A stretch of 64,000 bases of DNA, from assembly GCA_018396635.1 (NCBI GenBank), contig JAGTQE010000006.1, positions 25,596-89,595 on the forward strand, read 5' to 3'. Within the stretch, counting starts at the first letter, position 1. Each line of letters begins with the position of its first letter. Positions 40,798 to 43,935 of this stretch are shown piece after piece. The translations under genes and the position numbers were made by a program. The DNA comes from Candidatus Bathyarchaeota archaeon. Lineage in GTDB: Archaea > Thermoproteota > Bathyarchaeia > Bathyarchaeales > DTEX01. The notes below the pieces were generated by a model. That model ran no database searches, was not told the DNA's origin, and saw nothing but the letters and a program-made list of their open reading frames with translations.

Positions 40798-41223
40798 TTA
40801 AGGGGCTATTATAGCAACCTTGACCTCTTTAACGCCCTTCTTGGCCATCAGCTCTTCTGCAAGCCTTCTTATTTTACTAGCCTCGCCGTTGACCGCTATT
40901 ATCTCTAAGCACTTATCTTCTTCAATATGTATATGCGTTGTTGAGGATATTATGTCCCTAAATTTATGCTGGGCCTCGGTTATCTTTTCTAGAAGCCTAG
41001 GCTTATCTAAATAATATAGGACTAGAACAGCCCCCGCAACATAATCTTCCCCCTGAGTCCACTTAAAATCGCTTATGAAGGCCCTTATAGCATCGTGGAC
41101 AGCTTTAGAGCGGTTCTCGTAACCCATTCTCTTCCAGACATCATCAAACTCCTCGACAAGCGATGGTGGAAGTGATACGCTAAAACGAATCACTCCTGTT
41201 TTACATTGCATCATGAACACCAA
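40798..41223 (-). CDS. nikR: NikR-like ribbon-helix-helix nickel-responsive regulator
   Basis: VIRFSVSLPPSLVEEFDDVWKRMGYENRSKAVHDAIRAFI; ACT-like HKFRDIISSTTHIHIEEDKCLEIIAVNG with His/Cys ligands. Confidence 0.93.
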   Translation of the reverse strand: MVFMMQCKTGVIRFSVSLPPSLVEEFDDVWKRMGYENRSKAVHDAIRAFISDFKWTQGEDYVAGAVLVLYYLDKPRLLEKITEAQHKFRDIISSTTHIHIEEDKCLEIIAVNGEASKIRRLAEELMAKKGVKEVKVAIIAP

Positions 41224-41292
41224 CAGTCTAATCTCTTAAAGGGGATATTAAAGCGTAAGTTCTTGCTGGAGCGATAAGTAAATCTTAAATAG

Positions 41293-41318
41293 TGTTACGA
41301 TATATTTTTCTAGTAACA
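41293..41318. promoter_or_regulatory. Candidate NikR operator TGTTAC-N14-GTAACA
   Basis: Perfect 6-bp inverted repeat in the nikR/ABC intergenic region, 15 nt upstream of the likely ATG at 41334. Confidence 0.55.
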
Positions 41319-41333
41319 TTACGGGTTTGCGAT

Positions 41334-42077
41334 ATGGTGCTGGCAATAAAACTCGATAACGTATCCACAGTATATGAGGGCGAAAAGAGGCCGGCGATCA
41401 GGGACATAACCCTCTCCATAAGGGAGGGAGAAATAGTTTATGTTGTGGGTCCAAACGCTGCTGGAAAGACAACGCTTCTTGAAACAATAAATGGGCTGCT
41501 GCCAGTCTTTAGGGGTAGCGTTCGTGTCCTCGGGCTGGATGTGCGTAAGCATGGTAGAAAGGTTAGATGCCAGATAGGGTATGTGCCGCAGGACTTTATG
41601 GTTAACTCTAATGAACCATATCGCACCATAGATGTTGTTTTGATGGGTAGGTGTGGGAAGGTTGGTGTTCTGCGTAGGCTCAGCAAGGTGGATAAAGAGA
41701 AGGCCATTGAAGCCATGAAGCTCTTAGGGATCGAAGACCTCGCTAACAGACCGATTGGGAAGCTCTCAGGCGGCCAACAGCAAAAGGCTATGATTGCTAG
41801 AGCATTAGCCAAAGATCCAAAAATACTGCTGCTAGACGAGCCATTCAGCAACTTAGATCCCGAGTCCAGAGAACGCCTATCTGAGCTGATAAGTCGCCTA
41901 AATAAGGAGCGCAACGTGACCGTTGTAGTTGTTACGCATGATGTGCAGCAGATTAATAACTCATGTAGCAGGATCGTGGTTATGAATAATGGGAGAATAA
42001 TTGCAGATGGAAAATTAGAGGATATTGTGGAGGCTGCTGAAAAGATACTTCCTATCAATTTTTGGAGGAGCTTGTAG
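41334..42077 (+). CDS. Metal ABC transporter ATP-binding protein (Zn/Mn-type family); ORF track opens at 41292 but ATG 41334 more likely
   Basis: VGPNAAGKTTLLETINGL, LSGGQQQKAMIARALAKDPKILLLDEPFSNLDP. Confidence 0.93.
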   Translation: MVLAIKLDNVSTVYEGEKRPAIRDITLSIREGEIVYVVGPNAAGKTTLLETINGLLPVFRGSVRVLGLDVRKHGRKVRCQIGYVPQDFMVNSNEPYRTIDVVLMGRCGKVGVLRRLSKVDKEKAIEAMKLLGIEDLANRPIGKLSGGQQQKAMIARALAKDPKILLLDEPFSNLDPESRERLSELISRLNKERNVTVVVVTHDVQQINNSCSRIVVMNNGRIIADGKLEDIVEAAEKILPINFWRSL

Positions 42078-42898
42078 TGATCTGGCTAAACTACACCATA
42101 TTCCAGAGGGTTATTATAGGCTGCATATTTACTGGGCTGCTTACAGGTTTGCTGGGCGTATTCGTTGTAAAAATGAGGCTTACTGCAATAGGCTACTCAA
42201 TAGCGCACAGCGCCTTCGCCGGAGCGGCTCTAGGTTTGGCTCTTTTAGCAGACCCGCTGATGACAGCGCTGCTATTTTCCATAGCTACGGCACTTCTCAT
42301 AGGTCCGGCTGCCGATAAAGCTAAGCTGCCAATCGACACAATAACCAGCATAGCGTTCTCGCTTAACATGGCCTTAGCATTCATATTTTTGACGCTCGCC
42401 CCTACGGTCGGCTTATCTAGTGAGGTTGCCAGCGTTTTGTGGGGAAGTATAGTGGCCATAACCAACAGGGATTTATTCTTTCTGGTGGTGTTAACTTCGA
42501 TTGTCATAGCTCTGGTTTACCTCTTCTGGAAGGAGATTTTCACAATAATGTTTGACAGAAGGATGGCTGAAGCTGATGGAATAAATACGAAGCCGTTCAT
42601 CTACTTCACAATCCTTATGGTTGGGGTGGTCATAGCGTTCTCGCTGAGGCTTGTTGGCGGGATTCTCGTATATGCGCTTCTCTTCAACCCAGCATCCTCA
42701 GCACTCCAATTTTCACATGATATGAGGAAAATAATTGTTCTGTCCCCCATTCTAGGAGTGATCTCATGCATATCCGGGTTCTTCTTATCTCTTGTATTTA
42801 ATGTGCCAATTGGCTCATCTATAGTTCTAATCTCGACAATAATGTTTGCCATCTCAGTCATAATCTCACCCAAAAAGAGGAGGGAGGTGAGAACCTGA
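42062..42898 (+). CDS. Metal ABC transporter permease (ABC-3 family)
   Basis: RVIIGCIFTGLLTGLLGVFVVKMRLTAIGYSIAHSAFAGAALG. Confidence 0.92.
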   Translation: MEELVVIWLNYTIFQRVIIGCIFTGLLTGLLGVFVVKMRLTAIGYSIAHSAFAGAALGLALLADPLMTALLFSIATALLIGPAADKAKLPIDTITSIAFSLNMALAFIFLTLAPTVGLSSEVASVLWGSIVAITNRDLFFLVVLTSIVIALVYLFWKEIFTIMFDRRMAEADGINTKPFIYFTILMVGVVIAFSLRLVGGILVYALLFNPASSALQFSHDMRKIIVLSPILGVISCISGFFLSLVFNVPIGSSIVLISTIMFAISVIISPKKRREVRT

Positions 42899-42933: not shown

Positions 42934-43935
42934 TTGATGCTCTTAGCGCTACTTGGACTTCAAATTGGAGCTGTAATGGGACAGGGAGATCAGGAGAAGC
43001 CAATAGTTGTGTGCACAACAAATGTTCTTGGATCAATAGTTAGGGATCTTATGGGAGACTCCGTAGACATAACGGTCCTAGTTAACCCAAGCTTATGCCC
43101 AGCCGACTACGACATTAAACCAGGAGACATATATGCTCTCAGCAAGGCGAAGGTGCTCTTCTATCACGGCATACCTGGAGAAAATCCTTGGCTAAACAAC
43201 CTATTAGAGGCTGCTGGAAACAAACAGCTAATACTAGTTAAAGTTGCGGGAACATATAATACGCCGGAGGGAGCTAAAAACTGCATAAAGATAATCGCTG
43301 GAAACCTAAGCCAAATATTTGGCGTAGATCTGAGCAGCAGAATGAGTGAGCTGCTGAATGAAATAGATTCTGTGGCGGGCCAAATACAGTATAGGGCTCA
43401 TTCTCTCAGGGTGGGTAACTTCAGCATTATATGTATGCATTGGCAGAAGGCGTTTGTCGAATGGGTTGGATTCAAGGTTGCTGCCACATATCGGCCGCCA
43501 GAACAGCTGTCGGCCAGTGAAATAGCGAGCCTAATTGACGTCGCTCGAAAGAATAATGTTGCCTTAATAATCGACAACCTTCAGGTTAGTGCGGAGTTCG
43601 GGGCCTCGATAGCCTCAGAGGTTGGAGCAATCCATGTCGTCCTAACAAACTTCCCTGGAGCAATACCCGGAACGGAGAATCTGGCAAAGATGTTCCGCTA
43701 TAACGCTGACCTCCTCTTCAGCGCCTTAGAGAGATGGAGCCTTATGAAGAAAACTGAGACCGAGTTAGAGGCCTTAAGATCGCAGGTGGAGAATTTAAGG
43801 TCTATGCTGGAATCTTTAATTGCGGAAAATGAGAGTTTAAAGAACCAAGCGTTTGTCTATCAATCGGTGCTCGCTGTGATCGCTGTGGCTGCTATCGTAG
43901 AGCTAATAATGCTGCTGGTGAAGAAGTCGTCTTAG
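42934..43935 (+). CDS. ZnuA-like metal-binding lipoprotein/periplasmic-type protein with C-terminal coiled coil and TM anchor; start probably upstream of 42934
   Basis: VVCTTNVLGSIVRDLMGDSVDITVLVNPSLCPADYDIKPGDIYALSKAKVLFYHG; adjacency. Confidence 0.85.
   Translation: MMLLALLGLQIGAVMGQGDQEKPIVVCTTNVLGSIVRDLMGDSVDITVLVNPSLCPADYDIKPGDIYALSKAKVLFYHGIPGENPWLNNLLEAAGNKQLILVKVAGTYNTPEGAKNCIKIIAGNLSQIFGVDLSSRMSELLNEIDSVAGQIQYRAHSLRVGNFSIICMHWQKAFVEWVGFKVAATYRPPEQLSASEIASLIDVARKNNVALIIDNLQVSAEFGASIASEVGAIHVVLTNFPGAIPGTENLAKMFRYNADLLFSALERWSLMKKTETELEALRSQVENLRSMLESLIAENESLKNQAFVYQSVLAVIAVAAIVELIMLLVKKSS

Follow-up and report, generated by a model that had tools for sequence, protein, structure and literature searches.

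A predicted NikR operator before a ZnuABC-like operon of a Bathyarchaeota archaeon and its probable link to nickel import

The window, by which we mean the whole stretch of 64,000 nucleotides analyzed here, comes from a Candidatus Bathyarchaeota archaeon. It contains a nikR gene on the minus strand and, divergent from it on the plus strand, an operon encoding an ABC transporter ATPase, an ABC-3 permease and a ZnuA-type substrate-binding protein, the neighborhood that the preliminary description of this DNA had recognized. An inverted repeat occupies the spacer between them (Table 1).

Table 1. Features of the nikR-ABC region (positions in the window).
Feature	Position	Strand	Basis and remarks
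nikR, 138 aa	40798..41214	-	ATG at 41214; longest ORF from TTG 41223
Possible TATA box of nikR (CTTTAATATCCCC, minus-strand reading)	41244..41256	-	About 35 bp from the operator; sequence only
Likely BRE/TATA of the ABC operon (aagtaaat + CTTAAATA)	41276..41291, TATA 41284-41291	+	Sequence and alignment
Predicted NikR operator, GTGTTAC-N14-GTAACAt	41292..41319	.	28 bp; sequence, consensus match, conserved arms, genome-wide uniqueness
ATPase of the ABC transporter; opens the operon	41334..42077	+	ABC_tran 112 bits; start backed by relatives
ABC-3 (ZnuB/MntB-type) permease	42062..42898	+	PF00950 178.9 bits
ZnuA-fold substrate-binding protein, divergent subfamily	42934..43935	+	PF01297 91 bits; family alignment

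The nikR product matches NikR_C with 88.9 bits, RHH_1 with 20.4 bits (level with the cut-off, 20.5) and the NCBIfam model of the nickel responsive regulator with 136.8 bits (cut-off 111). The nickel ligands His83, His94, His96 and Cys102 align with His76, His87, His89 and Cys95 of the E. coli protein and are kept in all NikRs examined. With both an RHH domain and the nickel-binding NikR_C domain the divergent gene is, as judged from its sequence, a true NikR. It encodes the only NikR_C protein of the genome. The strand that contacts DNA reads RFSVS. The closest relative with a solved structure is NikR of Pyrococcus horikoshii (PDB 2bj1 and others), in which the ligands and the strand, RFS[VI]S, are the same; a literature search returned no report of an operator for that protein.

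The preliminary description placed the dyad just upstream of an ATG at 41334, a start that agrees with the aligned relatives. An A/T-rich, TATA-like block abuts the left arm of the dyad in the aligned loci. The usual archaeal distance between TATA box and start places initiation in the right arm, which is a classic position for a repressor; from this spacing, transcription of the ABC operon is expected to begin at about 41313-41316. Because the operator lies directly against the TATA-like box and spans the predicted initiation site, nickel-loaded NikR should block initiation. A search of the spacer found no terminator and no sigma-70 promoter, the latter as expected for an archaeon.

The core dyad TGTTAC-N14-GTAACA is exact and perfect at the position first given (41293-41318), although its arms had been drawn one base short: they are 7 bp long and bring the whole site to 28 bp. 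In this extended form it agrees at 13 of 14 positions with the NikR signal GTGTTAC-[N13/14]-GTAACAC that Rodionov et al. 2004 predicted for delta-proteobacteria, where it precedes nikMNQO (PMC545781). In the form GTGTTA-N16-TAACAt it shares the 28-bp geometry of the E. coli operator GTATGA-N16-TCATAC, and the NikR-like architecture first proposed is supported.

The inverted repeat as such, viewed blind, is unremarkable in an AT-rich spacer and provides weak evidence: shuffling of the 119-bp spacer produces a perfect 6-bp inverted repeat with P = 0.04 for N14 and P = 0.26 for N10-18. Agreement with the NikR consensus at 13/14 or better was not seen in any of 2000 shuffles (0/2000). Since the repeat alone is non-significant and the consensus match is absent from the shuffles, the case rests on identity with a known motif and on conservation. 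At up to two mismatches TGTTAC-N14-GTAACA has a single match in the window, with 1.14 expected at that looseness, so that a perfect dyad is far rarer. The 1.45-Mb genome holds one perfect match to this 6-bp-arm pattern, and with 7-bp arms (GTGTTAC-N14-GTAACAC) the site at 41292-41319 is the only one with at most one mismatch; exact N13 or N14 sites of the 7-bp-arm pattern are absent from the whole genome. The check for a better NikR site elsewhere in the genome yielded none. Additional NikR targets in the same genome were considered and rejected, as no other N14 site has at most one mismatch and the N13 version gives one site with two mismatches, which is unrelated. The 29 other genome sites with two mismatches to the 6-bp arms are treated as noise, because a reversed control pattern gives 51.

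Conservation was examined in related genomes, the check that had been suggested for the dyad. When eight loci of seven genomes are aligned, no base of either arm varies (the right arm as far as GTAACA), and the spacers are otherwise divergent. Within this order the spacing is always N14. The box lies between nikR and the ABC operon in close relatives (L066, L067, L068, L071, L072, L073, L106-L108 and L145, a list that includes some loci fetched twice). It is also retained in relatives without ABC genes beside nikR, including other families of the order (L069, L070, L075-L079 and L082). In L069, L070, L075-L078 and L082 a gene for a small membrane protein lies on the far side of the box from nikR; the product in L076 is an ECF S component (PF07155, 44.8 bits). 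The box further co-varies with the regulator: NikRs with the contact strand RFS[VI]S are paired with GTGTTAC/GTAACAC boxes, and those with R[VI]SVT with boxes of the GTAATAC type (family f8: L024, L026, L028-L030, L035). This co-variation, read from sequences with few lineages behind it, links the box to NikR. Taken together, these data make it very probable that the adjacent NikR uses the dyad as its operator. The type of operator is known, and its setting is new.

In the f8 loci L024, L026, L028, L029, L030 and L035, and also in L118, L120 and L178, the half-sites are in direct orientation, with the forms GTAATAC-N14-GTAATAC and GTAACAC-N13/14-GTAACAC. GTAATAC differs from its reverse complement GTATTAC in the central base only, and orientation may matter little there.

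Several other genes are found next to such boxes. A membrane gene of 163-186 aa is divergent from nikR in L069, L070, L075-L082 and L102-L104, most of them with a box of 12-14/14 alongside, which is of the GTAATAC type in L102-L104. The products in L075, L076, L081 and L082 match ECF S components, and those of L077, L080, L104 and others have no significant Pfam match. These small membrane genes are candidate nickel transport components unrelated to CbiM. In two relatives, G117 and G076, boxes with 13/14 matches directly precede [FeFe]-hydrogenase genes (L096:6382 and L100:11872; Fe_hyd_lg_C at about 300 bits), which suggests that in these archaea a hydrogenase without nickel is repressed when the metal is present. 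NikR-type boxes also occur between ABC ATPase and Peripla_BP_2 genes (L085, L086, L088, L089, L092, L095); in L085, the locus whose neighbors were tested, genes for a methyltransferase and for a FecCD permease come next. That the other genes behind the box encode transporters and [FeFe]-hydrogenase fits nickel control.

The operon itself combines an ABC-3 permease, an ABC ATPase and a ZnuA-fold binding protein, the composition of an ABC-3 importer. The binding protein carries a C-terminal coiled coil and a membrane anchor. Its AlphaFold2 model has a mean pLDDT of 95.5, and the best Foldseek matches are ZnuA, AztC, YfeA, PsaA and MntC, with ZnuA 1pq4 on top (TM-score by target 0.78). A search of the sequence collection for this divergent subfamily gave 78 loci, distributed over Bathyarchaeota, Hecatellales, Theionarchaea, Thermoplasmata, Methanothrix, Bipolaricaulota/Acetothermia, Atribacteria, WOR-3, Syntrophales and others. 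Among 77 sequences Cys55, Pro56, Asp60, Gly179 and Asn215 are invariant; the invariance of HVVLTNFP (HVxLTNFP), a stretch contained in the search pattern, is set aside as evidence. The metal ligands of PsaA are His67, His139, Glu205 and Asp280. In a profile alignment His67 corresponds to Ala57 and Asp280 to Asn239, where the aligned entry itself carries Asn at the Asp280 position, and the two middle ligands (His139, Glu205) are unconserved. The Zn/Mn ligand set of ZnuA and PsaA is therefore not present in this binding protein. A protein that lacks the usual metal ligands may not bind a bare ion.

The association between box and subfamily was examined in 62 C-type ABC-3 loci with an upstream region, using dinucleotide shuffles for the expectation; not all of these loci are phylogenetically independent. 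The best box reaches at least 12/14 in 12 of the 62 loci (0.03 expected) and at least 11/14 in 22 (0.88 expected). The remaining 40 have no box at 11/14 or better, many of them with no nikR in view. Upstream regions of canonical znuA genes from relatives never reach 11/14 (0 of 17). Box-bearing operons of the subfamily extend from Bathyarchaeota to WOR-3, Atribacteria and Syntrophales, with perfect N13 boxes at one Atribacteria locus and two WOR-3 loci, and outside the 62 counted loci a perfect box is found 44 bp before the binding-protein gene of a Euryarchaeota locus. In several bacteria the subfamily operon comes after the gene of a TonB-dependent receptor, ahead of which stands a box or nikR; nikR is often present. 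Such a combination of a TonB-dependent receptor with the subfamily operon fits metal import in diderms.

The genome has a potential use for nickel. At least four loci match the [NiFe]-hydrogenase large subunit, some of which may encode related complex-I-type proteins, and there are two strong matches to LarA, in agreement with the nickel demand that the preliminary description had derived in part from LarA. Neither CbiM/NikM nor NicO (NiCoT) was found in the 99%-complete genome, nor is either part of the ABC operon. Three SBP_bac_5 proteins (NikA/oligopeptide class) are encoded elsewhere in the genome, a point that counts against the nickel reading. The operon behind the predicted operator has a PF01297 binding protein instead and is not of the NikABCDE type.

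We put the probability at roughly 0.8 that the dyad serves the adjacent NikR as its operator and that the operon encodes an importer of nickel or a nickel complex. The motif, its position and conservation, the statistical linkage and the replaced ligands are observed; that NikR binds, that it represses and that nickel is the substrate are inferred from the sequence data. When nickel is sufficient in the cytoplasm, a nickel-loaded NikR tetramer would bind both half-sites and cover the edge of the TATA box together with the transcription start. Bound NikR would block recruitment of TBP, TFB and RNA polymerase, by which the ATPase-permease-binding-protein operon would be switched off. When nickel drops, the operon would be expressed, and the resulting transporter, a member of the ZnuABC/MntABC (ABC-3) family, would import nickel or a nickel complex by means of its divergent binding protein. 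Nickel or a nickel complex is the likely cargo, a view based jointly on the box, the orthology of NikR and the changed ligands. The earlier preference for nickel over zinc import is likewise supported, as a reading of NikR control, the missing Zn/Mn ligands, the [NiFe]-hydrogenase-like and LarA genes and the absence of CbiM and NiCoT.

The cargo could differ if NikR acted as a general metal brake. The operator would then still belong to NikR, but the main substrate would be zinc, manganese or cobalt, as membership of the ZnuA/ABC-3 family suggests. The genome encodes no PF01297 protein other than this binding protein, and a zinc or manganese role would leave no spare importer of the type. NikR paralogues with all nickel ligands intact but another contact strand (IISLSIP and similar) are found in other genomes of the order, divergent from canonical znuABC and without a box (L190-L194, L199 and L094), and nearness to a nikR-like gene alone therefore leaves the metal unsettled. 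However, the canonical Zn/Mn ligands are replaced in the subfamily, and the primary NikR with its box accompanies the subfamily and not the 17 canonical znuA loci tested. The bearers also include methanogens, syntrophs and other anaerobes, for which a nickel-rich metabolism is expected. On balance, zinc, manganese or cobalt as the main cargo appears unlikely.

It is much less plausible that a different regulator binds the dyad, with the nearby nikR having its targets elsewhere. In favor of this, the operator and nikR are about 80 bp apart and the operator lies right against the promoter of the transporter, yet the motif equals an independently derived NikR consensus, the box follows nikR where the neighbor is an ECF S component, it co-varies with the DNA-contact strand of NikR, and the genome has no second site of such quality. 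A functionless chance repeat, for which the 26% of spacer shuffles with a 6-bp inverted repeat at N10-18 could be quoted, is ruled out by the arms kept in relatives despite divergent spacers and by the family-wide enrichment of the box, and has a negligible probability.

With NikR control of a nickel importer as the preferred reading, the locus can be compared with known systems. The delta-proteobacterial NikR operator has the same sequence, spacing and place upstream of a predicted nickel transporter, and one further target predicted by Rodionov et al. 2004, the Fe-only hydrogenase of D. desulfuricans, is paralleled in the two relatives mentioned above (PMC545781). In contrast to the delta-proteobacterial case, the operator described here is found in an archaeon, has N14, is combined with a TATA/BRE promoter and precedes an ABC-3 transporter instead of NikMNQO. 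The E. coli nikABCDE operator resembles it as a 28-bp dyad with two spaced half-sites, a single target operon and a divergent or adjacent nikR, whereas the half-site sequence and the transporter class differ, the NikABCDE binding protein being of the SBP_bac_5 type. With ZnuABC, MntABC, PsaABC and AztABC, ABC-3 importers of Zn, Mn and Fe, the operon shares the fold of the binding protein, the permease and ATPase families and the gene layout, but here the ligands are replaced, Cys55, Pro56, Asp60 and Asn215 are invariant, and the box is that of NikR and not of a zinc or manganese regulator. Nik/CbiMNQO, NikABCDE and NiCoT are the only types given in a survey of nickel transporters in archaea from 2009 (PMC2667541). 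Our literature search, which did not extend to the nickel/cobalt transporter comparison of Rodionov et al. 2006, found no description of NikR control of an ABC-3 transporter.

The subfamily is probably a variant of the ZnuABC kind that represents an apparently undescribed type of nickel importer. We lean, with less confidence than for the locus itself, towards a cross-domain family of nickel importers on a ZnuABC scaffold, in which the Zn/Mn ligands would have been exchanged for a Cys-containing site (Cys55, Asp60, Asn215 and neighbors) that possibly takes a nickel complex, under NikR control through the same box in archaea and bacteria. The routine annotation of an ABC-3 transporter is that of a zinc or manganese importer. 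If the subfamily imports nickel, annotations would have to be corrected across many lineages, and a gap would be filled in uncultured anaerobes that, like the archaeon studied here, combine nickel enzymes with a lack of CbiM and NiCoT.

Additional genes accompany some operons of the subfamily. In several phyla an FmdE-domain gene is present between the binding-protein and ATPase genes (L143:1028, L152:3135, L128:6756, L147:6824), and it is a possible metal-handling accessory of these C-type operons. In a Syntrophorhabdus operon the permease gene is followed by one for a class I methyltransferase (L174:8434), and another methyltransferase gene is the one noted above in the FecCD-type operon of L085; both are possibly related to a chelator.
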